DNA from: Lepas anatifera
Taxonomy: Eukaryota > Arthropoda > Thecostraca > Lepadidae
Direction: 5' to 3'
Assembly (NCBI GenBank): GCA_034440635.1
Contig: JAOTON010001819.1
Coordinates: 1,953,001 to 2,017,000, forward strand
Length of the DNA: 64,000 bases
The position numbers were made by a program, and so were the translations under genes. Positions 20,613-57,324 of this stretch are shown one piece after another (positions within the stretch are counted from its first letter, which is position 1; every line of letters begins with the position of its first letter). The notes beneath the pieces are model-generated. The model did not search any database, was not told where the DNA came from, and was given only the letters and a program-made list of their open reading frames with translations.

Positions 20613-20648
20613 ATCTTCACTTGCCGGATTCGTCCGGCAAGTAAAGAT
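20613..20648 (+). other. Predicted RNA hairpin at the LINE 5' end
   Basis: ACTTGCCGGA (20619-20628) and TCCGGCAAGT (20633-20642) form a perfect 10-bp stem closed by a TTCG loop. A C/A mismatch and five further pairs extend it to 20613-20648. It begins about 15 nt from the inferred transcript start. A structural role in the element RNA is inference only. Confidence 0.6.
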
Positions 20649-21397: not shown

Positions 21398-23155
21398 GTG
21401 AGGGCGTCGCCGGCCTCCCTACAGTCATCGGATTCCATGATCTTTGGGGATATTAGGATGACGGAGATCAAGCTTTCTACTATGGATAACCCAAGACAGA
21501 ACCCCACTCCCCCTGAACCTAGCTCAGGGCAGCCCAGCACTGGGAATGCCCACTCCCATGAAGGTGTTGGGATGGAAGTCGAACGCCGCAACATTAGACC
21601 TTCCTGCCCTCGTGTGCTGATGGTGCGTGGAATGGACGGTGCATTGGCCCAGCTTTCCCCTTTTCAGTGTAAGGAGGCCTGTGACAAGTTGGGAAAGATT
21701 ACACGATGCGACCGCTTGAGGGACGGCGTGATGGAGCTGGAATTCGCTAACCCAACCGAAGCTGAGCGAGCACTTAGCGTGAAGGAACTTGAATTTACAA
21801 AGAGGGATGGACTGAGCAAAAGAACTGTAAAGGTGAAAGTAGGAATAGAACCACATCGAACAAAAAATTTTGTAAAGGGAGTGATACGATGCTGGGACCT
21901 GAAAGAGGTACATGAGGATGACATTGTCGATGGACTAGCCGAATATGGAGTTGTCGATGCGAGAGAGATGCGTAGGAAAATTGGAAACACCATGATAAAC
22001 ACAAACACAATCATACTTACCTTCGATCAGATAGATCTCCCTGAGAACATCAATGTCGGGTACTTGAAGGTGCCCGTGAGGGCCTACATACCGAACCCCA
22101 TGCGTTGCTACAATTGTAATAGATTTGGTCACACGTCAACAACCTGTAGGAACAAGCATCTCTGCGGGCACTGTGGCTCAGAGAACCATGCGTCAGCTGA
22201 CTGTGCAGCTGAAACTGAGCGCTGCTCAAACTGTGACGGTCCCCACTCCGTGTTCAATAAGGACTGTCCCACGCTCATTAAGGAGAAAGAGATCCTGACC
22301 TTGATGGTACAGAAACGCATCTCCTTTCGGGATGCTCGAGTGGAGTATGAGACCACTCACCCAAAGAAATCCTTCGCCCTAGCGGCGTCCTTGGCGACGC
22401 CTACATCCCCGCGGATGACCCCGGAGGAGGTCATCCGCTCCCTGACCGTGGCGGACTTTGTCCGCATGGCAGGGAGGATGGGGCTGGTCTTTAGGGACCG
22501 GCCCGTCACCTCGGCTCCCCAACCGAAGGTGACACCCCCTCCGGGGCCCCCTTCCGTGACGGCGCCGGCGCCCCCGGCCCCGTCGGAGCCCTCCCCGCCT
22601 GTACCCCTGCCGCCTGCGACCTCCGCCGGTGGTGTGGTGCCCGGGAGTGGAGCTTCCCCCTCCTCTGAATCGGGTACTCCCGTGCCGGTGGGTGGCGCGG
22701 AGGGTGCGTGGGGCTCTGCCCCTCTTCCTCTGACGTCTGAGGGGGTGGGGGACTGGACCGTTGTGGGGCCCAAGAAGAAGCACCCCCCAGCACAGCGGCG
22801 CCATGAGCGGTCACCTGTTGAACCTCCAGATAAACCCGCGCCTAAGACCACACATCTGTCCCAAAGTACTCAACAGGTTCCTGCCTCATCGTCCATAAAC
22901 ACAGTGGCCAACCCAAACACATCTGTGTTATCAACCTCGGTGGTGGAAGTTCGGAAGAACTTTGAGACCGCAGCGCGAGGAAGGTCACCGGTGAAGCGCC
23001 CTGCTGGGAGCCCTCCCGAGGTGTCCCGGCAAACCGCTCGTGCCCGTGGAAGTTCGGCGGAAGGCGGTAGAGGCCGTGGTCCCATTCGGAACCGCCTCGG
23101 TGCGGGACCATCAAAGAGTCCATATGGGGGCTCTGGTCTCCCTTGGAAAAGTTAG
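21398..23155 (+). CDS. LINE ORF1 protein (Gag-like, CCHC zinc knuckles)
   Basis: The 585-residue nucleic-acid-binding protein would coat element RNA and act as chaperone. Central residues (about 228-290) hold CYNCNRFGHTSTTC and CGHCGSENHASADC, two C-x2-C-x4-H-x4-C knuckles, and a third looser one (CSNCDGPHSVFNKDC). Upstream (residues 65-190) is a probable RRM-like region (VLMVRGMDG, then basic TKNFVKGVIRCW). The C-terminal third is rich in Pro and Ser and basic. The start is the first ATG; an alternative at 21437 would remove 13 residues. It is followed after 46 bp by ORF2. Confidence 0.9.
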   Translation: MRASPASLQSSDSMIFGDIRMTEIKLSTMDNPRQNPTPPEPSSGQPSTGNAHSHEGVGMEVERRNIRPSCPRVLMVRGMDGALAQLSPFQCKEACDKLGKITRCDRLRDGVMELEFANPTEAERALSVKELEFTKRDGLSKRTVKVKVGIEPHRTKNFVKGVIRCWDLKEVHEDDIVDGLAEYGVVDAREMRRKIGNTMINTNTIILTFDQIDLPENINVGYLKVPVRAYIPNPMRCYNCNRFGHTSTTCRNKHLCGHCGSENHASADCAAETERCSNCDGPHSVFNKDCPTLIKEKEILTLMVQKRISFRDARVEYETTHPKKSFALAASLATPTSPRMTPEEVIRSLTVADFVRMAGRMGLVFRDRPVTSAPQPKVTPPPGPPSVTAPAPPAPSEPSPPVPLPPATSAGGVVPGSGASPSSESGTPVPVGGAEGAWGSAPLPLTSEGVGDWTVVGPKKKHPPAQRRHERSPVEPPDKPAPKTTHLSQSTQQVPASSSINTVANPNTSVLSTSVVEVRKNFETAARGRSPVKRPAGSPPEVSRQTARARGSSAEGGRGRGPIRNRLGAGPSKSPYGGSGLPWKS

Positions 23156-23201
23156 GCTAAGTCCCTTCTTTTACTCACTAAGCCCGTTTCCCTTTATTTA
23201 A

Positions 23202-26200
23202 ATGACTATTGTTCAGTGGAACTGCCGTGGTATTCGCGCGAATCTTTCTGACCTGCAACACATTATATCACAGTATAACCCTAGTGTGCTTTGCCTTCAA
23301 GAGACAAAACTGTCGCCTGGAAGCCTTTTTAACCTGCGACAGTTCCAGACGTTCAGAAAGGACGTTCTCAGTAGCACCATTGCCTACGGTGGTGTTATGG
23401 TGGCAGTTCACCACTGCACCCCGTGCTTCCCTGTTCGCTTGAACACGGTTCTGCAGGTAGTGGCCACCCGGGTAGATTTAGGATTTGTGAAAATCACAGT
23501 TTGTTCGATTTACCTCCCTCCTGGTGGCAACATTGATCTGCATAGTCTTAATGCTCTTGTTGACCAACTGCCAACCCCTTTTGTTCTATTGGGCGACTTT
23601 AATGCTCACAACCCATCATGGGGAGCGTCCTCGGACCGCTCGTGTCCCCGAGGCCGAACAGTGGAACGTTTCCTCCATCTCAACTCTCTCTGCCTGCTGA
23701 ACACTGGTCGTCCCACTCACTTTACCCTGCCTTCTGGATCGCTCTCGGCTATAGACCTCTCTGTCTGCTCACCTTCACTCTTTACCCAGCTCAGCTGGTG
23801 CACCCTTGAAGACCTCCATGGGAGTGACCACTTTCCAATAAACATCCGTTCAGCCCGGTCGGCTGCACCGCTGGTTCTGCCATCCCGGTGGAACCTCCGA
23901 AGGGCTGACTGGGAGGGCTTCCGGGGCGCATGTGGCCCCTTGGATATAAGTGCTGAGGGTTCGGCAACGGCAGCAGTAAAGCATTTTAATGACATGATTC
24001 TTTCAGCAGCCAAACGTTTTATCCCAATGACTTCCGGCAAACCCAAACGAACTCCTGTCCCCTGGTGGAACCACGAATGCCGACAAGCGATTTTAGAAAG
24101 GAAACGGGCTTACAGAGTACTTAAAAGACACACAACGACGCCTAACATAATAACGTTTAGGCGCGCGAGAGCGTTGGCGCGACGTATAGTTGTTAACTCT
24201 AAAAGGAGATGGTGGGTGGCATATGTCAATACAATCAACCGTTTTACTCCATCTACACAGGTCTGGTCTCGTATTCAAAGTATACAAGGAAAGCATCGAT
24301 CAACACCTGCCACAGTATTAGAGGAAAACGGCGTCAAAATTAGCAATCCACAGGCAGTGGCTGACCGTATGGCTGCAGAATTCGAGGCAAGATGTAGCAG
24401 GGAGTCCCAGGATCTCGAGTTTGTTCGCTTTCGGGAGCGAGAAGAGAGAACACCGATTAATTTTGGTAACGACAGTTCGGCTGCATACAACATTCCTTTT
24501 TCAATGCGTGAACTCCGGGCTGCACTAAACAATACAAAAAACGTATCTCCGGGACCTGACACAATTACCTACGAGATGTTGCGGCACGCCCCTGACTGCT
24601 CTCTTGTATCACTGCTTGACATATTTAACTATATATGGACGCAGGATGACTTCCCAGACCAGTGGCGCGAGGCCACCATAATACCAATCCTCAAGCCAGG
24701 AAAGCCAGGAGTGTCTCCTGATGACTTTCGCCCGATATCTCTCACCTCCTGTGTGTGTAAGCTGCTTGAAAGAATGGTTAATACTAGGCTCGTGTGGTTC
24801 TTGGAGACCAATCAACTGCTTTCGAACGACCAGTGTGGTTTTCGCCGAGGCAGAAGTACTGTCGACCATCTTCTTTCTCTCGATGCTGATATCCGTAAAG
24901 GCTTCTCTGAAAAACAACACACAATAGCTATTTTCTACGACGTAAAGCAGGCCTATGATTCGGTATGGAGGCATGGCATCCTGAAAAAGGTGTTCGGATT
25001 GGGCATACGGGGTCATATGGGCTGGTTTCTCTCAAATTTCTTACGAAGCCGTCGGTTTAGATTCAGGATAGGTAGCGTGCAGTCAGAGGAGCGAGCGCAG
25101 GAAAGCGGAACGGCCCAAGGTAGCGTGATCTCTGTGACCATGTTCGCTATTGCAATCAACGACATATCATATAACCTACCACGTAATATCAACACAGCTC
25201 TATTCGTAGACGATTTCAGCATGTGGGTAACGGCGTCGTCCACAGCCGCTGCAGAAAGGCAGCTACAGCTCGGACTCACAAAGTTGCAGCGGTGGAGCTC
25301 CAAAAATGGTCTACAATTCTCAACGACAAAAACGAAATGTATACATTTTTGCCGCAGACGCAGTCCGTGTGATGATCCCACATTAACTATGTATGGAGAA
25401 AGAATCCAGGTAGTCGCACATGCACGGTTCCTGGGCCTGACTTTTGACTCTAAGTTGACTTATATAAACCACTTTAAGGTTGTAAGGGAAAGGTGCTTCA
25501 AGGATCTGAACATTCTGAAGGTTATAACTAAGTTAAAGTATGGCGCAGACAGAAAAACACTTTTGATGTTGTACCGATCGCTAATCCGATCAAAAATTGA
25601 ATATGGCTGCATGGTATACGATTCAGCCACGGAGACAGCAAAATCTATGCTAAATACCATACATCACCATGCCATTCGAATTATCATCGGTGCATTCCGC
25701 ACATCGCCTACCGCCAGCATACTCGTCGAGGCAAACGAGATGCCGTTAGACTTGCGACGTCGTGTCCTTGCGATGAAATACGCTCTAAAAATAAAACAGT
25801 CTCCAAACCATCCAACATACAGTAAGCTATTCTCTGATGACATCAGACACTCGGAAGAAAATCTATCCCGAAACAGACACCCTGGTCTCAGAATTGGAGC
25901 GTGGCTTAGGGAAGCAGGAGTTGACTGTGAACAGGTTGAGACTTTCCAGAATCCCTTATTAGAACCATGGACTCTCCCAGAGCCTCAGGTGGACACCAGT
26001 TTGCTTGTTAAGACCAAGAATCTGCCGCCTGTTGCGGTCCGGCAGATTTTCTGGGAACACGTAAATGACATGTATTCAGGTTGTGAGATATATTATACAG
26101 ACGGATCTAAGACGGAGAGCGGTGTCAGATGTGCGTATGTAAGTGATGGAATTGAACAACGTTATACACTCCCTGTGACAGCATCAGTTTTTACTGCTGA

Positions 26201-26921
26201 ACTTTACGCTATCTTCCGAGTTTTAGACCAGGTGTTACGGTCGAGGAGACGCAAATACGTTGTATTTACTGACTCACTGTCGTCTTTGCAAGCACTAACA
26301 TCATTTGATTTTCACCCCTCATCGTCATATATTCTGGAACTTATTCGGAATAAGATGCACAGAGCACACTGCCAACAAAAACAATTAACACTGGCATGGG
26401 TGCCCAGCCACGTGGGAGTGCCTGGCAATGAGCAATGTGACGCTGCGGCGAAGGATGCGTCACGGGGTATCGTGCCGTCAGGAATAAAAGTGCCTTACTC
26501 TGACTGTTTCCCTGCCATCAGGCAGTATGCATTCGAGTCTTGGCAACGGAGATGGGACAATGATCCCAAGGGCTCCAAATTGCGCCTTATGAAGCCCAGG
26601 ATCGGCGCGTGGTCATCGGCCAATGCCAGGTGCAGAACGGACGAGGTTGTTTTAGCCAGATTGCGTATAGGACACACACACTCCACTCACTCGTTCCTTC
26701 TGAGAGGAGAGGAGCCACCGGAGTGCCCGCGATGTGGGGAACACCTCTCTGTTAAGCATGTTCTCACTGACTGCCGGGACTTTGAGATTGAGAGGAGGGC
26801 TCACTTCCCCGTAGATTTTTCACTCGGGTCCCTTATTGGTGAGTCGCCGTCAGTCGATGTGGCAACAATATCGGCTTTTTTAAAGAGTATCGCATTCAAT
26901 GTCATTTATTCACCCTCGTAG
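23202..26921 (+). CDS. LINE ORF2: endonuclease, reverse transcriptase, RNase H
   Basis: The protein has 1239 residues. The N-terminal APE-type endonuclease (1-225) shows VQWNCRGIRANL, CLQETKLS, LGDFNAHNPSWG and GSDHFPI. The RT (about 480-760) shows PGPDTITYEML, DFRPISLTSCVCKLLER, QCGFRRGRSTVDHLL, IFYDVKQAYDSVW, GTAQGSVISVTMFAIAI and the catalytic FVDDF at about 667. RNase H (about 960-1090) shows YYTDGSKTESG, TAELYAIFRVLD, VFTDSLSSLQAL and WVPSHVGVPGNEQCDAAAK. The C-terminal CPRCGEHLSVKHVLTDC zinc motif is at about 1173. No internal stop is seen. It would nick DNA, copy its RNA by target-primed reverse transcription and remove the RNA strand. The first ATG is used. Confidence 0.95.
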   Translation: MTIVQWNCRGIRANLSDLQHIISQYNPSVLCLQETKLSPGSLFNLRQFQTFRKDVLSSTIAYGGVMVAVHHCTPCFPVRLNTVLQVVATRVDLGFVKITVCSIYLPPGGNIDLHSLNALVDQLPTPFVLLGDFNAHNPSWGASSDRSCPRGRTVERFLHLNSLCLLNTGRPTHFTLPSGSLSAIDLSVCSPSLFTQLSWCTLEDLHGSDHFPINIRSARSAAPLVLPSRWNLRRADWEGFRGACGPLDISAEGSATAAVKHFNDMILSAAKRFIPMTSGKPKRTPVPWWNHECRQAILERKRAYRVLKRHTTTPNIITFRRARALARRIVVNSKRRWWVAYVNTINRFTPSTQVWSRIQSIQGKHRSTPATVLEENGVKISNPQAVADRMAAEFEARCSRESQDLEFVRFREREERTPINFGNDSSAAYNIPFSMRELRAALNNTKNVSPGPDTITYEMLRHAPDCSLVSLLDIFNYIWTQDDFPDQWREATIIPILKPGKPGVSPDDFRPISLTSCVCKLLERMVNTRLVWFLETNQLLSNDQCGFRRGRSTVDHLLSLDADIRKGFSEKQHTIAIFYDVKQAYDSVWRHGILKKVFGLGIRGHMGWFLSNFLRSRRFRFRIGSVQSEERAQESGTAQGSVISVTMFAIAINDISYNLPRNINTALFVDDFSMWVTASSTAAAERQLQLGLTKLQRWSSKNGLQFSTTKTKCIHFCRRRSPCDDPTLTMYGERIQVVAHARFLGLTFDSKLTYINHFKVVRERCFKDLNILKVITKLKYGADRKTLLMLYRSLIRSKIEYGCMVYDSATETAKSMLNTIHHHAIRIIIGAFRTSPTASILVEANEMPLDLRRRVLAMKYALKIKQSPNHPTYSKLFSDDIRHSEENLSRNRHPGLRIGAWLREAGVDCEQVETFQNPLLEPWTLPEPQVDTSLLVKTKNLPPVAVRQIFWEHVNDMYSGCEIYYTDGSKTESGVRCAYVSDGIEQRYTLPVTASVFTAELYAIFRVLDQVLRSRRRKYVVFTDSLSSLQALTSFDFHPSSSYILELIRNKMHRAHCQQKQLTLAWVPSHVGVPGNEQCDAAAKDASRGIVPSGIKVPYSDCFPAIRQYAFESWQRRWDNDPKGSKLRLMKPRIGAWSSANARCRTDEVVLARLRIGHTHSTHSFLLRGEEPPECPRCGEHLSVKHVLTDCRDFEIERRAHFPVDFSLGSLIGESPSVDVATISAFLKSIAFNVIYSPS

Positions 26922-27378
26922 TTTTTTTCTCACTTCATTTATGTAGCAGACACACACAAATGGTAACACCACAGGGTTAGTACTTTTTACGTATAAACCT
27001 CCTTTTTATTAGCACCTGACCTGTTGCAGCCCTCACAGTACTTCATTTAATGTTATGGGCGCCATATGACCCAGCTGTCGGTGCGCCCAAAAACCCCAAC
27101 AATGATGATGATATGCCACACGGCAATGCTATTACCCGCATTATGCATATTAGATTCGTATAAGTTGTAACGACACCAGAAGGATATCAGTCAGTATGTT
27201 TCTGAGTTTGTCTGAGCTTCTGATTCAGGCCTCATTTTGTGTTTTCAGGGTGACTAGATAACGTTGTTGTTTGTAACTTGTTTTGTTAGCTGGTCGCCTG
27301 CTGACGAGACTTGGGCTTGGCCCCGTGTCTCAGTCAGAGGTGACCGGGGCCGCTTTGACACACTGCCCCCGGACACAG

Positions 27379-27543
27379 GTGCCGATCGGGAGGTGATCGT
27401 GGAGCACCTGCCGGGTCTGATGGGCCTGCGGGTAGCCTCCCGGGCCGGCACCAACTACACCAACGCCTGCCGCGGCGACAACGCCGGCTGCTCCCACCTC
27501 TGCCTGCATACGCCCGACGGGCCCGTCTGCAACTGTCCCATCG
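27379..27543 (+). CDS. LRP5/6: LRP5/6 exon C: end of propeller 2 and EGF-like module 2
   Basis: Joined to exon B it reads KITGADREVIVEHLPGLMGL, then an EGF-like module: NACRGDNAGCSHLC, LHTPDGPVCNCPIG. The acceptor is GGACACAG|GTGCC (phase 1) and the donor CCCATCG|GTGAGC (phase 1). The last 33 nt of this exon plus its donor are repeated twice more at 28929-29035. A hAT has inserted right after the first copy. Confidence 0.92.
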
Positions 27544-28109
27544 GTGAGCGGGGGTGCCACACTAGGGTGTTTCATTGTTCCAAAATGCAATATTTCGACG
27601 CATATCGATGTTCCCCTCAAACCTCATCTGCTTACAAGCTTCTGTGCGAAATTTCCATGAATTTCGATGATATTTAAAGGTCTCGCACCTTTGCAGCTTT
27701 TTTATCAAATGTATTCAAATGTACACATAAGCGTAGGAACGTCCAGAATATTGGGGAGACCAAGGTGCATTTCGAAGTCATTTCTTTCCAGTCAACGCCA
27801 TAGGGTTAATGGTCAAGAACCAAGAATATTGGGGGGGCATGGCCCCCTGCCCCCCCCTGTTCCTACGCCTATGATTGTACACATTTCTACACTGATACTG
27901 GCGCTGGTTTTCTTTTGCTTGATTTTCTAATTCACATCTGAAATATTCTTCAAATTAAGTAAAGCGTTTATTACTGCACAATGACTAGCCTGAGTATAAA
28001 ACCCGACCGGTTTCGGGAGCATCATTTTAGAATTATTAGCTCTATACACGAGTTATTTTTCAATTCAATCTCTTGTTTGGCTGGCATTTTAAGAGGTCCA
28101 AAAATCCAG

Positions 28110-28500
28110 AGAAGATGGTAACTTTGCCGATATTTCTATTCATTTTTGGTTCCGTTTTGGTTTGGGTGTAAATTGCCTCTTTTATGTCCCGCTGTTTTTG
28201 TCTTGAGTCGAAAGTTAAAGTCGTTGTGGCGTCCCATTTGATATACTGATCCTTCTTGAATTAATGTTCCGCTGTGGCCTCCGCTGCTCTCTCGTCAATT
28301 GACCCTCGGATTAGTTTTTGTCGAGATTTTCGGTGTTCGTCTTGTCGGACTTCCATCATCCTTTTGCTTTCTCCAATGTATGCTTTTTGACAGTCATTAC
28401 ATTCCATCGTGTATACTGGGCCTGGTTTTTTCCGGTTGTCTATCCTGTCCTTTGGTTTGACTAGTAATTGTTTGATCGTTTGATGTGGCTTAAAATGTTC
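28110..28500 (-). pseudogene. Penelope-like element fragment: RT-linker and GIY-YIG endonuclease
   Basis: On the minus strand the frame reads HQTIKQLLVKPKD (linker), PGPVYTMECNDC, KAYIGESKRMMEVRQDEH (the GIY-YIG core with Cys pair) and ERAAEATAEH. After a stop it continues as YIKWDATTTLTFDS. This order is that of the C-terminal end of a Penelope-like protein. It lies inside the hAT at 27563-28928 and has no RT. It is not the same family member as the relic at 16.6-18.1 kb. Confidence 0.75.
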
Positions 28501-28505
28501 TTACG

Positions 28506-28919
28506 TTGAATTTAGAACATATGCGTCGAATCTGTTGCGATACTCCTTCTACATATGGGAAGGATCATTATATCAAATGGGACGCCACAACGACTTTAAC
28601 TTTCGACTCAAAACAAAAACAGCGGGAAAGGAAGATCGCCCTCATCAAGAGGTTCAACGGATTCGTCAAGGACGAGAGGCAGAAGCAGTACCTGCTCCGG
28701 GTGGTGGAACTCCATCGGAGGGCTCTCTACCCAAGCGCACTAAGAAAGAATGCGCCTCTTTCAAGTGTAATGGTTTTTGGTGATAAAAGTGCGCGACCTC
28801 TAAATGTCCTTTTTATTTTGCTTTTAAGGGTGTCAATCGATTCAGTTTTACGTATAGAGCTGGGGGAAAGTCGATATGACTTCGTTGCAAACAAACAAAA
28901 TTTTACTATAGTGGGCTGA
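28506..28919 (+). CDS. Chimeric open frame inside a hAT: Penelope tail plus unidentified host-like segment
   Basis: The 137-residue frame starts with sequence matching, in opposite orientation, the Penelope-like tail next door (DHYIKWDATTTLTFDSKQKQ). It then enters a stretch of about 45 codons with strongly G/C-ending codons like the LRP exons (KIALIKRFNGFVKDERQKQY, then LLRVVELHRRALYPSAL). The final part is A/T-rich. I do not recognise the middle segment. Its codon use suggests a captured host exon. Whether it is expressed is unknown. Confidence 0.4.
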   Translation: MNLEHMRRICCDTPSTYGKDHYIKWDATTTLTFDSKQKQRERKIALIKRFNGFVKDERQKQYLLRVVELHRRALYPSALRKNAPLSSVMVFGDKSARPLNVLFILLLRVSIDSVLRIELGESRYDFVANKQNFTIVG

Positions 28920-28928
28920 AACAGCCTA

Positions 28929-29035
28929 TGCCACACGCCCGACGGGCCCCTCTGCAACTGTCCCATCGGTGAGCGGGGGGTGCCACACGCCCGACGGGCC
29001 CCTCTGCAACTTTCCCATCGGCGAGTGGGGGTGCA
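28929..29035 (+). repeat. Two extra tandem copies of the exon C 3' end with splice donor
   Basis: The unit of about 52 bp (TGCCACAC, GCCCGACGGGCCCCTCTGC, AACTGTCCCATCG, GTGAGCGGGGG) is the tail of exon C plus the start of its intron. The first extra copy keeps the donor ATCG|GTGAGC. The second has ATCGGCGAGT and a Cys codon changed to Phe (AACTTTCCC). Removing the hAT at 27563-28928 makes a continuous three-copy tandem with the real exon end. Confidence 0.9.
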
Positions 29036-29342
29036 CTGCAGCAGCTGTGGCGTGACGCGCCTGAAGGAGCCGCCCTGCCCAACTGTCGCTTTCAGAAAGT
29101 CGCGGTATATTCAGTTTGACGGCCCCCACGGGCGCTTGTCTCTTGGGAATGCGCCGCCGTGAAATTTAGTGCTTTTGACACTTATTTTAAGGGTAAGATC
29201 TACCAACCTTTTGAAAAATTGTCTAAATACGGTTGCCGATATCGCGTTGGAGCACCGTGTGTCTCAAAAGAGGTAGGCCTCCCTGTAACCAGCTGTATTA
29301 GTAATACCATATTATCGCTTGAACCGGAGCTCCGTCCTCCAG

Positions 29343-29487
29343 ACCACGAGCTGATGGCCGACCTGAAGACGTGCGTGGTGCCGGAGGCCTTCCTGCTGTA
29401 CACTCAGAAAAGGTTCATCCGCCGCATCAGCCTGGAGACGCGGCAGAGTGACGTCATCATCCCCGTGCGCGGCATCGAGGAGGCGGG
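29343..29487 (+). CDS. LRP5/6: LRP5/6 exon D: EGF 2 end and propeller 3 start
   Basis: The exon encodes HELMADLKTCVVPEAFLLYT, RFIRRISLETRQSDVIIPV and RGIEEAG, matching the join between EGF 2 and the first blade of propeller 3. The last EGF cysteine is present (LKTC). The acceptor is GTCCTCCAG|AC (phase 1) and the donor GCGG|GTAAGT (phase 2). With exon C the junction adds about one residue to the usual length. Confidence 0.93.
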
Positions 29488-29889
29488 GTAAGTTCTTCCG
29501 CTGCCTATACACCGAGAGGCCGACCCAGGTCCGTCCGGTGTTGGAAACAGTGACTGGGTACACCCACACGTCACCTTCAGCTAGTGCCAGCGTCTTAAAC
29601 TTTCTCCCTCTTAATGCCATTAAAACCCGCATCCTAACATCTGGGCTTAGTTCAGTGGTCAGCAGGGCTTGGCAGGATGTAAACCTGGGGACAACGCGGC
29701 ATCAACTGGAGTACTCGGCCACGAACGTTACCTCCCTTCTTTGGCTCCTGTCTCTTTTCGGCCCGCAAAACTATAGCTGGGCCATCTTAAAATCCGATGG
29801 CTTGTTTGCATGCCAGATGTCATTGTTTGTGGACTGAATATCTCGCCTTATCATTGTCTCCGTTCTTCACGTCACGCTGGCATTTGCAG

Positions 29890-30020
29890 TGCCCTGGACT
29901 TCAATATGCGAGACCAGCGGATCTACTGGACCGACAGTCAGGGCAAGTCCATCTCCCGCGCCTACACCAACGGCTCCGGTGTGCAGAAGATCATTCAGCT
30001 GGACACCGAATTCCCCGAGG
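29890..30020 (+). CDS. LRP5/6: LRP5/6 exon E: propeller 3, blade with YWTD
   Basis: The exon encodes ALDFNMRDQRIYWTDSQGKS, ISRAYTNGSGVQKIIQLD and TEFPEG. The acceptor is TTTGCAG|T (phase 2) and the donor CCCGAGG|GTCAGT (phase 1). The phase and the residue expected next (a GMAVDW-type strand) predict a following exon that starts with two bases completing Gly. This is what identifies the start of exon F. The intron starting at 30021 holds about 0.5 kb of degenerate GACTG-rich sequence before the 68-bp array. Confidence 0.93.
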
Positions 30021-30562
30021 GTCAGTGCCGTCTCTGTGTTGTGATGGTTGCGTTAAGAACGCGCCGCCTTTCGGCGCCCGGACATAGGGTAGCGTTCTTG
30101 AGGTGAAACGACTACTTAAATGGCTGCTATAGGGTTTTAGATGATATCGCTGGACAATTTTAATGCCGATTCTGGCTTCTATCAGGACTGGAGCTAGGAC
30201 GGCTTCTGTTAATGCCCAGAGTGGGCAATCGACTTCATTTTAAACCTTTTTTGCTTAAGTACTCTGGCGTTCGGATGACAGAGAAAACTGACGTTGTGTT
30301 AACCCGTCGAATTCCCACTGGCACTGAGCGTTAACTGCCACTGCTGATGGAAGCTGTAAGGGAGGCCGGTACCTAGCCGGGAACTGACGACTGGGCTCGG
30401 AGACAGGACTGGCCGGAAACTCACGGCAGAGCTGCTGGCAGACTGACGACTGACGGTCTTGTTAGACTGGTGCTGGACTGAGACTGTAGTGGTTGACCGG
30501 GGGTTGACGAGCTAGTGGCTGCTGTCGGGTTTTGCGGCAGGCCTAAAACTGCTCCATTGCAG

Positions 30563-31175
30563 GCCTGGCAGTAGACCGGGACTGATTGTTGGCCTGAGTT
30601 ACTCCTGACTGAGAGTGTACCTGCCGGCAGGCCTGGCGGTAGACCGAGACTGATTGTTGGCCTGAGTTACTCCTGACTGAGAGTGTACCTGCCGGCAGGC
30701 CTGGCGGTAGACCGGGACTGATTGTTGGCCTGAGTTACTCCTGACTGAGAGTGTACCTGCCGGCAGGCCTTGCGGTAGACCGGGACTGATTGTTGGCCTG
30801 AGTTACTCCTGACTGAGAGTGTACCTGCCGGCAGGCCTGGCGGTAGACCGGGACTGATTGTTGGCCTGAGTTACTCCTGACTGAGAGTGTACCTGCCGGC
30901 AGGCCTGGCGGTAGACCGAGACTGATTGTTGGCCTGAGTTACTCCTGACTGAGGTGTGTACCTGCCGGCAGGCCTGGCAGTAGACCGGGACTGATTGTTG
31001 GCCTGAGTTACTCCTGACTGAGAGTGTACCTGCCGGCAGGCCTTGCGGTAGACCGGGACTGATTGTTGGCCTGAGTTACTCCTGACTGAGAGTGTACCTG
31101 CCGGCAGGCCTGGCAGTAGACCGGGACTGATTGTTGGCCTGAGTTACTCCTGACTGAGAGTGTACCTGCCGGCAG
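30563..31175 (+). repeat. 68-bp tandem array copied from the exon F acceptor region
   Basis: Nine units start at 30563, 30631, 30699, 30767, 30835, 30903, 30972, 31040 and 31108, and the tenth start (31176) is exon F itself. Each unit opens with GCCTGGC(G/A)GTAGACC directly after an AG (CCGGCAG in most). This is the first five codons of exon F (LAVD...) with its acceptor. After GTAGAC the array units read CGGGACTGA (stop), whereas the real exon reads TGGCTGGCC. The array is therefore an amplified exon/intron junction. Confidence 0.92.
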
Positions 31176-31326
31176 GCCTGGCGGTAGACTGGCTGGCCGG
31201 TAACATTTACTAGGCGGAGGCGATGACGGGGCGGATCGAAGTGGCCCGACTAGACGGCAGCAGCCGCCGCCCGCTGCTCTGGAGCAGCGCCCACCCCCGC
31301 AGCATCGCCGTCGACGCCGAGTCCGG
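31176..31326 (+). pseudogene. LRP5/6: LRP5/6 exon F: propeller 3 blade, with an in-frame TAG
   Basis: Completing the Gly from exon E, the exon reads LAVDWLAGNIY, then TAG (31211-31213), then AEAMTGRIEVARLDGSSRRP and HPRSIAVDAESG. The family has Trp (TGG) at the TAG position in its YW(T/A)(D/E) motif, so a single G-to-A change explains the stop. The acceptor is CCGGCAG|GC (phase 1) and the donor TCCGG|GTACGG (phase 2). Starting the exon after the TAG (acceptor TTTACTAG at 31213) would shift the frame relative to exon E and remove a blade strand. The change could be a sequencing error, a null allele or real decay. Confidence 0.8.
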
Positions 31327-31337
31327 GTACGGGGCGA

Positions 31338-32705
31338 CGCCGACACTGCTGCACGTGCTAGCACCAGCAGTATGGCACATGACACATATCGCAGCACGTG
31401 ACAGCACAGGCGCTTTACAACATTTATATAGCGGCACGTGCTGGTATGGACATGTTCATTGCGACACGTGATCACAGACACCACGACACATGGCAACACA
31501 GACACCGCGACACGTGGCAACACCGACACCGCGACACGTGGCAACACCGACACCGCGATACGTGGCAACACAGACACCGCGACACGTGGCAACACCGACA
31601 CCGCGATACGTGGCAACACCGACACCGTGATACGTGGCAACACCGACACCGCGACACGTGGCAACACATGCGCAACGACACGTGGCAACACAAGCACCAC
31701 GACACGTGGCAACACAGATACGGCGACACGTGGCAACACCGACACTGCGACACGTGGCGACACATGAGCAACGACACGTGGCAACACAGACACCACGACA
31801 CTTGGCAACAAAGATACCACGAGACGTGGCGACACAGACACCGTGACACGTCGTAACACAGATTCCGCGACACGTGGCAATACATACGCAACAACACCTG
31901 GCAACACAAACACCACGACACTTGGCAACAAAGATACCACGAGACGTGACAACACAGCCACCACGACACGTGGCAACACAGACACCACGACACGTGGCAA
32001 CACCGACACCGCGACACGTGGCAACACATACGCAGCGACACGTGGCAACACAAACACCACGACACGTGGCAACACAGACACCGCGACACGTGGCAACACA
32101 TGCGTAGCGACACGTGGCAACACCGACCCGCGACACGTGGCAACACAGACACCGCTACACGTGGCAACACCGACACTGCGACACGTGGCGACACATGCGC
32201 AACGACACGTGGCAACACAGACACCACGACACGTGGCAACACAGATACCGCGACACGTGGAAACACATACGAAACAACACCTGGCAACTTAAACACCACG
32301 ACACGTGACAACACAGGCACTACGACGCGTGCCAACACAGATACCACGACACGTGCAAACACAGACACCACGATCCATGGCAACACCGACACCACGACAC
32401 GTGGCAACACAGACACCACGACACTGGGCGACACAGATACCCCGAGATGCGACAACACAGACACCACGACACGTGCCAACACAGACACCACGATCCATGG
32501 CAACACAGACACCACGATCCATGGCAACACCGACACCACGACACGTGGCAACACAGACACCACGACACTGGGCGACACAGATACCCCGAGATGCGACAAC
32601 ACAGACACCACGACACGTGGCAACACAGACACCACGATACTTGGCAACACAGATACGACGAGACGTGACAACACAGCCACAACGACACGTGGCAACACAG
32701 ACAGT
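31338..32705. repeat. 24-bp minisatellite rich in CACGTG (E-box) motifs
   Basis: Units of about 24 bp (CGACACGTGGCAACACAGACACC with variants) run for some 1.3 kb. Most units contain the palindrome CACGTG. Because 24 is a multiple of three and the unit lacks stops, long open frames occur on both strands; they are artefacts of the repeat. The most degenerate unit-like sequence (GACGCCGACACTGCTGCACG, 31339-31358) lies a few bases after the exon F donor, suggesting that the array grew from there. Confidence 0.9.
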
Positions 32706-33032
32706 CAGGCTCACGGAACATACTCATCAGGGCTGGCAGCATGCACGCGCTTGATCTGTGTGGTATTTTTCAAGATAGATGTTTGGTAATGAAGAATATG
32801 GCAAAAGAAAGAAAAACGGAATGATGAATAACAATGAATGAATACAGAATGGACTTGTCATTTTTATGTGCATATTTGTATTATTGAAGAAGTTAACCTA
32901 TCTTGTATTGTTGAACAATACTATTATATATGTCAGAGGTTTCAGATATGTCAGACGGTGTTTATGTATTTTTAGGGGTGGGGCGATGTTTTATCTACTT
33001 CGGCGAGTATTGGCATCCTTCCCACTCTCCCG

Positions 33033-33343
33033 GTACCTGTTCTGGTCGGACTGGAGTACGGTACCGCAGTACCGCACACTAACCCCTCTCTTCCTCCAGG
33101 TACCTGTTCTGGTCGGACTGGAGTACGGTACCGCAGTACCGCACACTAACCCCTCTCATCCCCCAGGTACCTGTTCTGGTCGGACTGGAGTACGGTACCG
33201 CACACTAACCCCTCTCATCCCCCAGGTACCTGTTCTGGTCGGACTGGAGTACGGTACCGCACACTAACCCCTCTCATTCCCCAGGTACCTGTTCTGGTCG
33301 GACTGGAGTACGGTACCGCACACTAACCCCTCTCGTCCTCCAG
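33033..33343 (+). repeat. 59/67-bp tandem array copied from the exon G acceptor region
   Basis: Starts of the unit GTACCTGTTCTGGTCGGAC fall at 33033, 33100, 33167, 33226 and 33285, and the sixth start (33344) is exon G. Spacings are 67, 67, 59, 59 and 59 bp. Copies 2-5 and exon G are preceded by a pyrimidine-rich run and CAG; copy 1 lacks the AG. Each copy encodes YLFWSDWS, the first YWTD strand of exon G, followed by intron (ACACTAACCCCTCTC). Only the last acceptor keeps the correct frame into exon G. Confidence 0.93.
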
Positions 33344-33879
33344 GTACCTGTTCTGGTCGGACTGGAGTACGGTACCGTCGTTGTACCGCGCGCTGCTGGA
33401 CTGTACGGAGCCGGAGCAGTTTGTCACCTCGGTTGGCCGCAGTAACGGTCTGACGGTGGACCACGGCTCGGGCCGGCTGCTCTGGGTCGACATCGATGAG
33501 AAGAGGATCGAGAGTCAGCTGTTGCAGGGCGAGGGCAGCCGGGACCGGCGCGTGGTTCTGTCCGGTCTAAATCAGCCCTACTCGCTGGCCGTGTACGGGC
33601 CGCACGTCTACTGGACGGACTGGACCGATAACCGCATCCAGCGGGCCGACAAGGAGACGGGGCAGAACGTGACCACTGTCAGGCAGGACGTGGAGTACGT
33701 GATCGACATTCTGGTGTTCCACCGCTCGGCGGCGGCCGGCTGGTCGCCCTGCGCGCTGCACAACGGCGGCTGTGAGAGCCTCTGCTTCTCACGGCCGGCG
33801 GCGGCGTCCCAGAGGGCCGAGCACCGCTGCGGCTGCCGCTCGCACTACAGGCTGGCCAAGGACGCCAAATCCTGCCTGC
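33344..33879 (+). CDS. LRP5/6: LRP5/6 exon G: rest of propeller 3 and EGF-like module 3
   Basis: This is the longest exon (178 codons plus flanking bases). It holds YLFWSDWSTVP, GRSNGLTVDHGSGRLLWVD, NQPYSLAVYGPHVYWTDW, NRIQRADKETGQNVTTV and DILVFHRSAAAGWSPC. The EGF module HNGGCESLC...HRCGCRSHYRL...KSC follows. It aligns with the second half of propeller 3 and its EGF in LRP5/6. Relative to the family the basic-rich IDR after SDW is replaced by VPSLYRALLDCTEPE, including an extra Cys. The acceptor is CTCCAG|G (phase 2) and the donor TGCCTGC|GTGAGT (phase 1). Confidence 0.95.
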
Positions 33880-34203
33880 GTGAGTGCTGGACTCGCAGGT
33901 CGTCAGCTGTTGGCTTTTATCGCAATTTCAGATGGATGCAGTGAAACTTGAAAGGCAGTCTTACGGGGTTTGCGTGTGTACACGAGTGGTAGTTATGAGG
34001 CCTCTCATATTTCATTGGTAAAATATATAGTGCAATGTTATTCTTGTTCCGTCATTTGATCAATAGCTGTGGATGGACACCTCTCAGACATTAACTAATT
34101 ACTGGTATTTAAGTATCCTAGGTATTAGTGAACAGTGACTGTAAAGCGAGACAAGTCATCCTTATTATGCCAGTGACGTTATCTAACGCGTCCGCTCCGA
34201 CAG

Positions 34204-37200
34204 CGCCGCACGATTTCCTATTGTTCGCCCGGCGGAGCCGCCTCCTCGGTCTAGTGTCAGTGACAGTGTCCGCCTCCGACAGCGCCGCACGAGTTCCTGC
34301 TGTTCGCTCAGCGGAGCCGCCTCCCCGGTCTAGTGACTGACAGTGACCGCCTTCGACAGCGCCGCACGAGTTCCTGCTGTTCTCCCAGCGGAGCCGCCTC
34401 CCCGGTCTAGTGTCAGTGACAGTGTCCGCCTCCGACAGCGCCGCACGAGTTCCTGCTGTTCTCCCAGCGGAGCCGCCTCCCCGGTCTAGTGTTAGTGACA
34501 GTGTCCGCCTCCGACAGCGCCGCACGAGTTCCTGCTGTTCTCCCAGCGGAGCCGCCTCCCCGGTCTAGTGTCAGTGACAGTGTCCGCCTCCGACAGCGCC
34601 GCACGAGTTCCTGCTGTTCTCCCAGAGGAGCCGCCTCCCCGGTCTAGTGACAGTGACAGTGACCGCCTTCGACAGCGCCGCACGAGTTCCTGCTGTTCTC
34701 CCAGCGGAGCCGCCTCCCCGGTCTAGTGTCAGTGACAGTGTCCGCCTCCGACAGCGCCGCACGAGTTCCTGCTGTTCTCCCAGCGGAGCCGCCTCCCCGG
34801 TCTAGTGTCAGTGACAGTGTCCGCCTCCGACAGCGCCGCACGAGTTCCTGCTGCTCTCCCAGCGGAGCCGCCTCCCCGGTCTAGTGACAGTTACAGTGTC
34901 CGCCTCCGACAGCGCCGCACGAGTTCCTGCTGTTCGCCCAGCGGAGCTGCCTCCCCGGTCTAGTGACAGTGAGTGTCTGCCTCCGACAGCGCCGCACGAG
35001 TTACTGCTGCTCTCCCAGCGGAGCCGCCTCCCCGGTCTGGTGTCAGTGACAGTGTCCGCCTCCGACAGCGCCGCACGAGTTCCTGCTGCCCTCCCAGCGG
35101 AGCCGCCTCCCCGGTCTAGTGACAGTTACAGTGTCCGCCTCCGACAGCGCCGCACGAGTTCCTGCTGTTCGCCCAGCGGAGCCGCCTCCCCGGTCTAGTG
35201 ACAGTGACAGTGTCCGCCTCCGACAGCGCCGCACGAGTTCCTGCTGCTCTCCCAGCGGAGCCGCCTTCCCGGTCTAGTGACAGTGACAGTGTCCGCCTCC
35301 GACAGCGCGCACGAGTTCCTGCTGCTCTCCCAGCGGAGCTGCCTTCCCGGTCTAGTGACAGTGACATTGTCCGCCTCCGACAACGCCGCACGAGTTCCTG
35401 CTGTTCTCCCAGCGGAGCCGCCTCCCCGGTCTAATGACAGTGACCGCCTTCGACAGCGCCGCACGAGTTCCTGCTGCTCTCCCAGCGGAGCCGCCTTCCC
35501 GGTCTGGTGTCAGTGACAGTGTCCGCCTCCGACAGCGTCGCACGAGTTCGTGCTGTTCGCCCAGCGGAGCTGCCTCCCCGGTCTAGTGACAGTGACAGTG
35601 TCCGCCTCCGACAGCGCCGCACGAGTTCCTGCTGTTCGCCCAGCGGAGCTGCCTCCCCGGTCTAGTGACAGTGAGTGTCTGCCTCCGACAGCGCCGCACG
35701 AGTTACTGCTGCTCTCCCAGCGGAGCCGCCTCCCCGGTCTGGTGTCAGTGACAGTGTCTGCCTCCGACAGCGCCGCACGAGTTCCTGCTGCTCTCCCAGC
35801 GGAGCTGCCTCCCCGGTTTAGTGACAGTGACAGTGTCAGCCTCCGACAGTGCCACACGAGTCCCTGCTGTTCGCTCAGCGGAGCCGCCTCCCCGGTCTAG
35901 TGACAGTGACAGTGTCTGCCTCCGACAGCGCCGCACGAGTTCCTGCTGTTCGCTCAGCGGAGCCGCCTCCCCGGTCTAGTGACAGTGACAGTGTCTGCCT
36001 CCGACAGTGCCACACGAGTTCCTGCTGCTCTCCCAGCGGAGCCGCCTCCCCGGTCTAGTGACAGTGACAGTGACCGCCTCCGACAGCGCCGCACGAGTTC
36101 CTGCTGTTCGCCCAGCGGAGCCGCCTCCCCGGTCTAGTGTCAGTGACAGTGTCCGCTTCCGACAGCGCCGCACGAGTTCCTGCTGTTCGCCCAGCGGAGC
36201 TGCCTCCCCGATTTAGTGACAGTGACAGTGTCAGCCTCCGACAGCGCCACACGAGTTCCTGCTGTTCGCTCAGCGGAGCCGCCTCCCCGGTCTAGTGTCA
36301 GTGACAGTGTCCGCCTCCGACAGCGCCACACGAGTTCCTGCTGTTCGCTCAGCGGAGCCGCCTCCCCGGTCTAGTGTCAGTGACAGTGTCTGCCTCCGAC
36401 AGCGCCGCACGAGTTCCTGCTGTTCGCCCAGCGGAGCCGCCTCCCCGGTCTAGTGACAGTGTCAGTGACAGTGACCGCCTCCGACAGCGCCGCACGAGTT
36501 CCTGCTGCTCTCCCAGCGGAGCCGCCTTCCCGGTCTAGTGACAGTGACAGTGTCCGCCTCCGACAGCGCGCACGAGTTCCTGCTGCTCTCCCAGCGGAGC
36601 TGCCTTCCCGGTCTAGTGACAGTGACATTGTCCGCCTCCGACAACGCCGCACGAGTTCCTGCTGTTCTCCCAGCGGAGCCGCCTCCCCGGTCTAATGACA
36701 GTGACCGCCTTCGACAGCGCCGCACGAGTTCCTGCTGCTCTCCCAGCGGAGCCGCCTTCCCGGTCTGGTGTCAGTGACAGTGTCCGCCTCCGACAGCGTC
36801 GCACGAGTTCGTGCTGTTCGCCCAGCGGAGCTGCCTCCCCGGTCTAGTGACAGTGACAGTGTCCGCCTCCGACAGCGCCGCACGAATTCCTGCTGTTCGC
36901 CCAGCGGAGCTGCCTCCCCGGTCTAGTGACAGTGAGTGTCTGCCTCCGACAGCGCCGCACGAGTTACTGCTGCTCTCCCAGCGGAGCCGCCTCCCCGGTC
37001 TGGTGTCAGTGACAGTGTCTGCCTCCGACAGCGCCGCACGAGTTCCTGCTGCTCTCCCAGCGGAGCTGCCTCCCCGGTTTAGTGACAGTGACAGTGTCAG
37101 CCTCCGACAGTGCCACACGAGTCCCTGCTGTTCGCTCAGCGGAGCCGCCTCCCCGGTCTAGTGACAGTGACAGTGTCTGCCTCCGACAGCGCCGCACGAG

Positions 37201-37748
37201 TTCCTGCTGTTCGCTCAGCGGAGCCGCCTCCCCGGTCTAGTGACAGTGACAGTGTCTGCCTCCGACAGTGCCACACGAGTTCCTGCTGCTCTCCCAGCGG
37301 AGCCGCCTCCCCGGTCTAGTGACAGTGACAGTGACCGCCTCCGACAGCGCCGCACGAGTTCCTGCTGTTCGCCCAGCGGAGCCGCCTCCCCGGTCTAGTG
37401 TCAGTGACAGTGTCCGCTTCCGACAGCGCCGCACGAGTTCCTGCTGTTCGCCCAGCGGAGCTGCCTCCCCGATTTAGTGACAGTGACAGTGTCAGCCTCC
37501 GACAGCGCCACACGAGTTCCTGCTGTTCGCTCAGCGGAGCCGCCTCCCCGGTCTAGTGTCAGTGACAGTGTCCGCCTCCGACAGCGCCACACGAGTTCCT
37601 GCTGTTCGCTCAGCGGAGCCGCCTCCCCGGTCTAGTGTCAGTGACAGTGTCTGCCTCCGACAGCGCCGCACGAGTTCCTGCTGTTCGCCCAGCGGAGCCG
37701 CCTCCCCGGTCTAGTGACAGTGTCAGTGACAGTGACCGCCTCCGACAG
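34204..37748 (+). repeat. 79-bp tandem array (about 45 units) copied from the exon H acceptor region
   Basis: Each unit reads GCCTCCGACAG|CGCCGCACGAG, TTCCTGCTGTTC, (T/G)CCCAGCGGAGCCGCC, then TCCCCGGTCTAGTGACAGTG. The part after the AG is the first 40 or so bases of exon H (PHEFLLFAQRSR). Because 79 is not a multiple of three, a transcript entering at most upstream acceptors meets a TAG in the third unit. From about 35200 the units form a higher-order repeat of 1261 bp (about 16 units) present twice, to about 37720. The GC-rich array accounts for numerous short open frames on both strands. Confidence 0.93.
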
Positions 37749-37912
37749 CGCCGCACGAGTTCCTGCTGTTCGCCCAGCGGAGCCGGCTGCACCGGCTGGT
37801 GTTCGTGCCGGGAGAGGCGCCCGACATCACGCTGCCCGTCACGTCCGTGCGCAGCGCCCGCGCCCTTTCGTTCGACCCCAACAACCAGCACCTCTACTGG
37901 GCCGAGAACAAG
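37749..37912 (+). CDS. LRP5/6: LRP5/6 exon H: propeller 4 start, GC donor
   Basis: Joined to exon G it reads SCLPPHEFLLFAQRSRLHRL, VFVPGEAPDITLPVTSV and RSARALSFDPNNQHLYWAEN. This matches the beginning of propeller 4. The acceptor is CTCCGACAG|CG (phase 1). The exon ends AACAAG|GCAAGT (phase 0), a GC donor with otherwise ideal consensus. No nearby GT donor keeps the register to exon I. Confidence 0.92.
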
Positions 37913-38224
37913 GCAAGTGCCCGACCTGGCGCCGGCGTCGGCCATTTGGGTGGTGGGAACACATGGGATGCCGGGTCCATGCGTTTTCATAGAGAATGGA
38001 TGCTGTTTTAGAGGCCATGGAAACGTCCGTCATGCAAGGAATCCACCCGTTTTACCTGTTGTCCCCCCGCCCACCGACCAATTATCTACACAAACTTGTT
38101 TGGCCAGTTCCCCAGTCGTTGAGGCCAGATTTCCGCACTCCCTCCCCCAGCCTGATCATTCCATGCATTTTGTGCGTAGAAAACGAACGCACTCGGTATG
38201 CTATCAGGTACACACGCACTACGG

Positions 38225-38560
38225 TTAAATCCTGGGAGTCGAGCAGCAGGCAAAGCAGAATGGAGGAGGTGAGCCTTACGAGGCTTCGAATCGGCCACTG
38301 TTATACGACCCACGCCCATCATTTGAACAACGCCGTCCCCAACACGTGTCCTCATTGTGGCAGCCGCCTCACAGTGCGGCATGTTTTATGTGCTACTGAC
38401 AGCTGCGACCAGCTGAAACGATGTCAGGGCCGATTCTTTCCACCGGTCCCGCTGGAACAGATCCTAGGAAATGACGCGTTCATAGACATTGGAAAAGTTT
38501 TATTATACCTGGGAGAAGTACATTTTGACGTAGTATATACCCCCATCAGATATTCTTAGA
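38225..38560 (+). pseudogene. LINE ORF2 C-terminal fragment in intron H-I
   Basis: The frame encodes KSWESSSRQSRMEEVSLTRL, IGHCYTTHAHHLN, CPHCGSRLTVRHVL and VHFDVVYTPIRYS. This is the zinc-motif tail after RNase H, closest in layout to the fragment at 6050-7146. It is a typical short 5'-truncated insertion. Downstream to 39128 no other coding feature is seen. Confidence 0.85.
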
Positions 38561-39128
38561 TATCACACCCTCTGTATAGGCCACTTTAGCTTATAAGGAC
38601 AAATCTCAGAATGATGTAATACAACACTGACGGGCATATATAGCCTCTGCAGCTGCAGTGCACTAAAACTCCAATGATCACCATACACACGCTGAACGCT
38701 GTCATACTGTGCATGGCTCAAGGTCACATTGTCTCTATGTATCCGTGTCATGATGGTGGAATGACTTCAAATGTTTTTTTTTTTTGTTAGCGTTGTCACT
38801 TTTTGGCTGGATTTTGATGACGTGCGCTGTTTAACACCGTTGTGTTGCTGACGTTACCTAATTTAATGTTTATTCATCTTCGTAGAGCTAGAAGTATTAC
38901 TGTTTCTTATGGGTGGAGACTAGTTTTTATTTCAGCTATAAATGTCTAACTTTACAAGCTTGCCATTCTCCACGTGTAATCCACTGATTGCCCAGGGGGA
39001 ATTCCCTCAGGCACCGATTGGGACCCATGGACATGATCTAGCTGTAGTGAGTGTACTGGCCACCTTCCGAGTGTGTGGAGGGATGTGTGGGCTGTGGTGC
39101 TGCTGGCTGACGTGTGACCACTCCGCAG

Positions 39129-39209
39129 ACGATTCGGCGGGCTCGGGACGACAACTCGGCTCAGTTCGTGCTCATACCCACCGGCAACCACCGGCCGGAT
39201 GACATACAG
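39129..39209 (+). CDS. LRP5/6: LRP5/6 exon I: propeller 4 blade fragment
   Basis: This small exon of 27 codons encodes TIRRARDDNSAQFVLIPTGN and HRPDDIQ. The acceptor is CTCCGCAG|ACG and the donor ATACAG|GTCAGC, both phase 0. It joins exon H as AENK-TIRRA. About five residues (a PYDLS-like strand) that the family has after this exon are absent before exon J. Confidence 0.85.
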
Positions 39210-39792
39210 GTCAGCGCAGACCGCCTCCACACCGGCCGCTGGCTGGCTCCGTTCTACAAGGGCCCAGGCGGCCGGAAATTATCACCCAGAGCCAGTTGTG
39301 AAAACAGCAGATGCATCTGATGGGCTCGAATTCGGAGAAAGTGTAACTTTTCGAATCGTCGCGATGAGATTAGGTTGTTATTGAATCGCCTGTTTTAGCC
39401 CCGACTTTCACTGTTACGCACTCTGTCGCCTGTCGTTTGAAATGTGCGTGTTCCAAGTTAGAACCATTACTCGGTGTTGTTGTCAATGGTGGAGCCGTGC
39501 CTGGGCTTGCAGTTCTGACTTGTGACTACGTCTTTGTGCGGATGTAGCCGAGCTCGGGCTGCTGCTCTGCTTCTCTGGTCTTTGCTTCTGTGCAGGTGGG
39601 GCCAGTGATAGATACAAGGGGCGAGGGGACTCGACCCCCCATGTCAGAGTGCCTAAAGTAATTGCATAGCCGGAGGGTATCCCGAGGCAATGGCGGAGGA
39701 GTCTCGAGCGCCCTAGCTCCCCCCAAATGAAGTCCTGGATCCGTCACTGGATGGAACCGTTCTTTGCTCTGTTGCAGGTCTGTGACTCTGCA

Positions 39793-39979
39793 GTTGGAGC
39801 CGTAATCGGGTCTGCTGTTCTGTTCTGGTCTGTGGCTCTGTCCATAGTCGGGTCTGCTGTTCTGGTCCATGACCTCTGCACCTCCTGGTGGAGCCGTACT
39901 GGGGTCTGCTGTTCTGGTCTGTGCCTATGTCCGTAATCGGGTCTGCTGTTCTGGTCTGTGACTCGGTGCCTCTGTGCAG
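39793..39979 (+). repeat. Degenerate tandem copies of the exon J acceptor region
   Basis: The sequence (G/T)TGGAGCCGTA...GGTCTGCTGTTCTGG, the start of exon J, recurs upstream. Longer copies start at 39793 (after CTCTGCAG) and 39888, and shorter GGTCTGCTGTTCTGGTC copies lie near 39850 and 39939. A more diverged relative lies at 39545-39595. Spacing is about 46 bp, or 92-95 bp for the longer copies. Divergence is higher than in the E-F, F-G and G-H arrays. Confidence 0.8.
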
Positions 39980-40122
39980 GTGGAGCCGTATTCAGGTCTG
40001 CTGTTCTGGTCTTGCACGGAGCAGAACACCATCAACGTCACCCGCTTGAACGGTAGCCACGTGGGTGTGGTGGTCACCGGGCCCGACAAGCCGCGCAACA
40101 TCGCGCTCATGCCCGAAATCGG
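39980..40122 (+). CDS. LRP5/6: LRP5/6 exon J: propeller 4 blade
   Basis: The exon encodes VEPYSGLLFWSCTEQNTINV, TRLNGSHVGVVVTGPDKPRN and IALMPEIG, aligning with the propeller 4 blade that has FW(S/T)C in place of YWTD. The acceptor is CTGTGCAG|GTG (phase 0) and the donor AAATCGG|GTACGT (phase 2). No later LRP5/6 exon is recognisable in the remaining 24 kb, so the gene continues past the window or is broken here. Confidence 0.92.
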
Positions 40123-49517: not shown

Positions 49518-49525
49518 CGTGGTCG

Positions 49526-54154: not shown

Positions 54155-54162
54155 CGTGGTCG

Positions 54163-57281: not shown

Positions 57282-57324
57282 AGATCAAGATAGGCTATTT
57301 CTACTAAAATATGAAATGCGAAAG

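Follow-up and report, generated by a model that had tools for sequence, protein, structure and literature searches.

Splice junctions repeated as tandem arrays in five introns of an LRP5/6-type receptor gene of Lepas anatifera

Why should a single gene carry several of its own splice junctions as tandem arrays within its introns? The question is raised by a stretch of 64,000 nucleotides of the Lepas anatifera genome (assembly GCA_034440635.1, contig JAOTON010001819.1, positions 1,953,001 to 2,017,000; hereafter the window), which contains part of an LRP5/6-type receptor gene, read as exons A to J at 19592..40122. All features described here lie on the + strand, and positions are those of the window. 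At 5 of the 20 exon edges of this gene, a sequence including the edge itself is repeated in tandem. We propose that these arrays are near-neutral minisatellites that were begun by duplications spanning a splice site and are tolerated through a predicted preference for the copy belonging to the intact exon, a reading to which we give a probability of about 0.58.

We looked for repeats of the exon edges by self-BLAST, which placed five edges in local direct repeats and the remaining 15 in none. Counting the authentic site, the donor of exon C is present in 3 copies and the acceptors of exons F, G, H and J in 10, 6, 46 and 5 copies, so that either side of an exon can be repeated. These counts bear out the initial annotation of the window, which had described the same five junctions in about 3, 10, 6, 45 and 5 copies. 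The units measure 52 bp (C), 68 bp (F), 59 or 67 bp (G), 73-85 bp, mostly 79 (H), and 92-94 bp (J), and their repeated part includes, by our count, 34, 14, 34, 37 and 33 exon nt, respectively. Tandem Repeats Finder (TRF) gave five arrays with a period of 46-100 in the 64 kb window; four of them (F, G, H and J) extend into the exon, and the fifth (28929-29031), which lies 1.37 kb away from exon C, consists of repeats of that exon's donor edge. The annotation had also stated that the units always include an exon edge, which is true of these five arrays and fails for a sixth, an array of 52 units of 24 bp in intron F-G (31462..32703, TRF). Five of the six arrays of the gene therefore include an exon edge, and as a set they are not ordinary intronic minisatellites unrelated to exon edges.

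Three of the arrays are fairly uniform, with TRF percent matches of 96 for F, 94 for G and 91 for H. Array F (30559..31189, TRF) consists of 9 decoy acceptors and the authentic one with a period of 68, and AG is kept in 9/9 decoys. Array G (33027..33378, TRF and self-BLAST) has 5 decoys plus the authentic acceptor, with a period of 59 or 67 and AG kept in 4/5. The largest, array H (34178..37785, TRF), has 45 decoys plus the authentic acceptor at a period of 79, with AG kept in 43/45; inside it, a 16-unit block (35201-36461) is duplicated at 36462-37722 (1,261 bp, 1258/1261 identical).

The other two arrays are interrupted. Array C (27510..29034, TRF and self-BLAST) repeats the exon C donor with 34 nt of exon, in the authentic copy and in two downstream copies at 28935 and 28987, which carry GT and GC. 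These two copies appear far from the exon because an element of 1,366 bp (27563..28928) with an 8-bp target-site duplication, TGCCACAC, and short terminal inverted repeats was inserted between them and exon C; from the 8-bp duplication we take this element to be hAT-like. Array J (39480..40012, TRF and self-BLAST) is degenerate, with 4 decoys (acceptor points 39489, 39596, 39794 and 39888) plus the authentic acceptor and AG kept in 2/4. One of its five copies is split by a short insertion of ~147 bp (39603..39749) resembling a miniature inverted-repeat transposable element, with terminal inverted repeats and lacking a clean target-site duplication, and two copies have no AG. The count of 5 takes in the degenerate copies, a strict motif count being 3, and it leaves out a weaker J-like copy near 39510-39550 (score 29, reached by 0/500 shuffles).

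The gene model places the extra copies in introns. Exons were read as A (19592-19825), B (20117-20258), C (27379-27543), D (29343-29487), E (29890-30020), F (31176-31326), G (33344-33879), H (37749-37912), I (39129-39209) and J (39980-40122), on the basis of an open spliced reading, PDB matches and collinear relatives. The spliced A-J reading has 630 codons and is open but for a single TAG. In the PDB search, the gene product matched LRP2, LRP4 and LRP6; the LRP6 match spans residues 68-503 of the 504-residue spliced C-J protein, with LRP2 and LRP4 higher by whole-chain score. LRP5/6-type relatives align to nearly the whole C-J protein, with 45% identity for Capitella and 42% for Varanus LRP5. 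Among 7995 candidates scored, 346 relatives were found at E <= 0.001; since the top identity among the best 120 of these 346 is only 50%, no same-species transcript is seen among those 120. At the junctions that carry arrays (C|D, E|F, F|G, G|H and I|J), the window protein has no extra residues against the 12 best relatives wherever the alignments span them, except that one relative (P0091) has 2 residues fewer than the window at F|G, G|H and I|J, and at C|D three relatives carry 2-6 extra residues of their own. The array copies therefore sit in introns. A tree of 30 rows placed the window among the protostome rows, with krill as the nearest named one, its forks being weakly supported and no amphioxus row included. 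LRP exons sought with 8 proteins in 40 kb on each side of the window gave none at E <= 1e-3, and an Rfam scan gave nothing at the gathering threshold.

Could errors in the assembly of long reads explain the arrays or their lengths? A genome search covering the assembly (1.044 Gb, 2,126 contigs) located the H array on two further contigs, C1612 and C1300. Over segments of 9.7, 15.1 and 7.1 kb, C1612 is 99.5-99.7% identical to the window, an identity from which we read it as likely the other haplotype, that is, the second parental copy. Its spliced reading is stop-free, with 9 differences from the window in 1892 coding positions, and four residues of its exon G (R, A, T and F) match a relative, P0001, whose source is probably this species or a sister one. 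The copy numbers given by motif spacing and TRF are 12 on C1612 vs 10 in the window for F and 30 vs 46 for H; C, G and J are equal by motif count, with TRF giving 4.1 vs 5.1 units for G. Contig C1300 carries ~30 H copies and a single C-edge copy, and its identity to the window is 85% with many indels in the first 5.6 kb and 97.9% from 8.9 kb on, its start being probably an unpolished contig end. Part of this is what an artefact would leave behind: the noisy start of C1300 means that consensus errors exist, only one C-edge copy was found on that contig, and, by copy number, the 1,261-bp duplication in array H is present on the window's contig only and missing on C1612 and C1300. However, arrays F, G, H and J were found on three contigs and array C on two, and the units within one array differ from each other. 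We therefore regard mis-assembly as a very improbable source of the arrays. The annotation had named it as one of the results that would overturn its claim; what the comparison leaves provisional is the exact lengths.

The three contigs also differ in exon F, where the codon at ~31211 is an in-frame TAG in the window and W in 117/120 relatives (best 120 of 346). Both C1612 and C1300 read W there, and the TAG of the window is therefore a stop allele or a consensus error.

We also considered whether the arrays work, as banks of acceptors selected to tune splicing or expression of the receptor, which the annotation had offered as one possible cause. The census comprised 63 decoy acceptors (F 9, G 5, H 45 and J 4), with the two C donors outside it. 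AG is kept in 58/63 of them, and the G units hold a pyrimidine run and the sequence CACTAAC, which we take to be a branch-site-like motif; these features speak for such banks. On the contrary, 19/63 decoys are in frame, 2/63 are stop-free and 0/63 are both, as expected of unused sequence, and any decoy acceptor, if used, would truncate or shift the receptor. The exon part of the H unit varies, and H units differ from exon H at positions that would change amino acids. Moreover, the window and C1612 differ by 2 units in array F and 16 in array H, and the insertions that break up arrays C and J have been left in place. Selection for acceptor arrays thus finds no support in the census, and we consider working arrays quite improbable.

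Within array H, the FLLF[S/A]Q codon is TCC (Ser) in some units and GCC (Ala) in others, and the authentic exon has Ala. In 120 relatives (best 120 of 346), this codon is Ser in 55, Ala in 38 and another residue in 27, counts into which other propellers may be mixed. Array H may archive or exchange exon variants. The array H peptide itself was sought in relatives, with 0/513 candidates at E <= 0.001.

The near-neutral reading would work as follows. A short duplication spanning a splice junction would start each array. If the duplication fell within an exon it would be purged by selection, while one across the edge would spare the site next to the exon, and the array could then grow into the intron by unequal exchange or slippage. 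The seeds would come from the GC-rich exons and from surroundings rich in minisatellites. Tolerance would follow from a predicted preference of the spliceosome for the copy joined to the intact exon. Published work (PMC9225289) supports this filter step, reporting that with introns >250 nt preference goes to the splice sites nearest to each other across the exon; the array-carrying introns measure 770-3869 nt and, minus arrays and insertions, still ~300 nt or more. The insertions within arrays C and J indicate that arrays age, and the expected life cycle would lead from young, uniform and unstable arrays (F, G and H) to decayed ones interrupted by mobile elements (C and J).

How much of the association with exon edges would placement alone produce? 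For the background, the window's contig was sampled in twenty 10-kb stretches, of which eight flank the window; together they hold 27 arrays with a period of 25-300, amounting to 7.4% of the 200 kb. The GC content of the exons is 0.66 vs 0.45-0.56 in 8 of the 9 introns. It may then be that GC-rich seeds are enough: minisatellites would arise in GC-rich DNA, here the exons, arrays inside exons would be selected out and those at the rims would survive. With the arrays removed, a 70-bp unit touches an exon edge in 7.5% of placements, which for 5/6 arrays gives P = 1.4e-5, and GC matching lifts this chance to 0.003 (GC >= 0.60) or 0.01 (GC >= 0.65). These in-gene values are post hoc, because the gene was picked for its arrays. 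Since part of the excess persists after matching, we hold GC-rich seeds as the sole cause to be possible though doubtful; this account is partly contained in the explanation that we prefer.

Exon edges chosen by domain rather than by their arrays were then used as an independent sample. A genome profile search with PF00058 returned 28 matches, two of which are the LRP5/6 locus itself. Five pieces picked by match position (L035, L036, L037, L039 and L040) cover 9 of the 28, and with tblastn and splice sites we read ~19 exon edges in them (4, 4, 7, 2 and 2, respectively), those of L035 and L040 being provisional readings. Results showed an array within 25 nt of 3 of the ~19 edges, with clear exon sequence in only 1/19. 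Two of the three are acceptors on contig C596: at the first, the array ends 2 nt into the exon, and at the second, ~six units of 31 bp include 17 nt of exon. The third is a donor on contig C1408, where the array starts 8 nt inside the intron. No array was found at the edges read in L035, L037 and L040. Piece L038, which continues L036, was taken as a follow-up since an array ran off the end of L036; it showed a third array on C596, of ~32 units of 33 bp, ending 13 nt within the next exon, and three further edges free of arrays. In this second LDL (low-density lipoprotein)-receptor-type gene, arrays thus stand at three acceptors in a span of 4 kb, and two of them include an exon edge. The recurrence noted in the annotation is confirmed within the LRP5/6 gene and reaches this second gene too.

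The significance of the independent sample depends on the null. For an edge merely lying within array sequence (coverage null), 3/19 gives P = 0.16, and the single hit with clear exon sequence gives P = 0.77, or 0.19 if an array end within 40 nt of an edge is demanded (array-end null). When the follow-up is included, 4 of ~23 edges give P = 1e-4 (array-end) and 0.086 (coverage), a count that is not independent. The sampled genes all belong to one domain family and most hits come from one gene. An excess of arrays at exon edges is therefore plausible, with its size open.

The duplications in this lineage could instead be made by a mutational process that targets splice junctions or the edges of transcribed exons, such as repair coupled to splicing during transcription. 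The annotation had suggested a process of this kind, with R-loop-linked repair among its candidates. The 5/20 edges of the LRP5/6 gene, the three acceptors of the second gene, the array-end result for the ~19 domain-chosen edges and the exon share of 33-37 nt in 4/5 arrays all speak for it. On the other side, GC matching absorbs much of the in-gene excess, the coverage null and the single clear exon among 19 edges leave the independent test weak, and the folding energy of the units is not unusual. A junction-directed process is not required, because the contig is minisatellite-rich, the exons are GC-rich and the independent test is small and null-dependent, and we consider such a process unlikely. 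Two related ideas were rejected. For hairpin-driven slippage, five single units folded on one strand gave z from -1.08 to 1.13 vs shuffles, against -1.25 to 0.73 for five other junctions. For the idea that the non-exon part of the unit is a diverged continuation of the exon, left-anchored alignments to the exon gave P of 0.07-1.0 in the five cases, nothing firm.

Several results nonetheless weigh against near-neutral arrays as the whole explanation. Under the array-end null, 0.2 hits are expected among the 19 edges vs the 3 observed (P = 0.001). Within the gene, the excess is not erased at either GC threshold, and with the arrays kept in place P is 4e-5 at GC >= 0.60. As array ends lie at edges above what density predicts, and an excess is left after GC matching, something beyond neutral placement may act. 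The splicing argument has its own limits in PMC9225289: at 3' splice sites of long introns the upstream preference is described as reduced and not said to vanish, and the minigene test used 5' sites. Therefore, some leaky use of the decoys may be expected.

Is this kind of array known elsewhere? In amphioxus, tandem repeats spanning exon-intron boundaries have been called mirages and are described in Adh3, the globins BflGb6 and BflGb9, PGBD5 and troponin C (PMC3087553 and PMC3902484, as are the comparisons that follow). The arrays of the LRP5/6 gene resemble them in several respects. Their units span the exon-intron boundary, with 14-37 exon nt in each of the five arrays; either boundary can be duplicated, here one donor and four acceptors; many copies, not all, keep AG or GT, here AG in 58/63 and GT and GC in the C copies; they have a minisatellite-like character; and copy number differs between haplotypes, here 10/12 for F and 46/30 for H if C1612 is the other haplotype as it appears. 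They differ in being found in another lineage, judged from the protostome rows of a weakly supported tree without an amphioxus row, and in scale, a single gene having five arrays of up to 46 copies, vs 6 and 3 units in two BflGb6 haplotypes. Mirages show length instability, reportedly without interfering in regular splicing; for the LRP5/6 arrays, of which the reading frames were examined, undisturbed splicing is a prediction.

Other systems share part of these features. Human genes in segmental duplications have internal tandem repeats at exon-intron boundaries (PMC2812944); these are minisatellite-like as well and, unlike the copies here, which are intronic by the gene model, they alter transcript exons and introns. 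Intron gain by tandem genomic duplication of AGGT segments (PMC3443670) likewise involves a tandem duplication that carries a splice site; that model creates a new intron within an exon, whereas here existing introns hold the copies. For earthworm metallothionein, intronic minisatellites and exon duplications missing from the final transcript are described, and no splice-junction arrays were found in the portion available. A literature search, mainly of titles and the starts of abstracts, named no such arrays in a protostome. Judged from sequence, the LRP5/6 arrays are of the mirage type, a kind already described that appears here on a larger scale and in a further lineage.

In amphioxus, mirages are on record for a few genes and have been connected with intron gain. 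Their occurrence, in greater number and length, in a second and apparently distant lineage would mean that they are no lancelet oddity. The arrays would also offer a natural test of how the spliceosome chooses the right site among dozens of near-identical ones, and they make it possible to ask directly, across the whole genome, whether tandem duplication favours exon edges or is merely tolerated there. A bolder idea, which we hold tentatively and think somewhat improbable, is that the multiplication of splice junctions is a general trait of this genome, affecting a considerable fraction of the exon edges of many genes and reaching tens of copies, in numbers that differ between the parental chromosomes; this would make a large supply of splice sites for intron growth and exon change, and the first case outside chordates.

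Other repeats were also observed. Intron B-C of the LRP5/6 gene (20259-27378) holds a non-LTR (long terminal repeat) retrotransposon, with a 1,239-codon frame at 23202-26921 that contains endonuclease, reverse transcriptase and RNase H domains and is preceded by a second long frame at 21380-23155. In the window from 49000 to 64000, TRF found many short arrays with 19-40 bp units of the GGTGCCCCCTGAGCTGATCT type, which were also seen in the flanking stretch L021. L031 and L033, two stretches 300 kb apart, have arrays whose 65-80 bp unit is built around GTCAGAAGCCGGTGACGAACGAAGTAAGAAACGGCTTCTATTCTGACAG, a sequence containing an inverted repeat.

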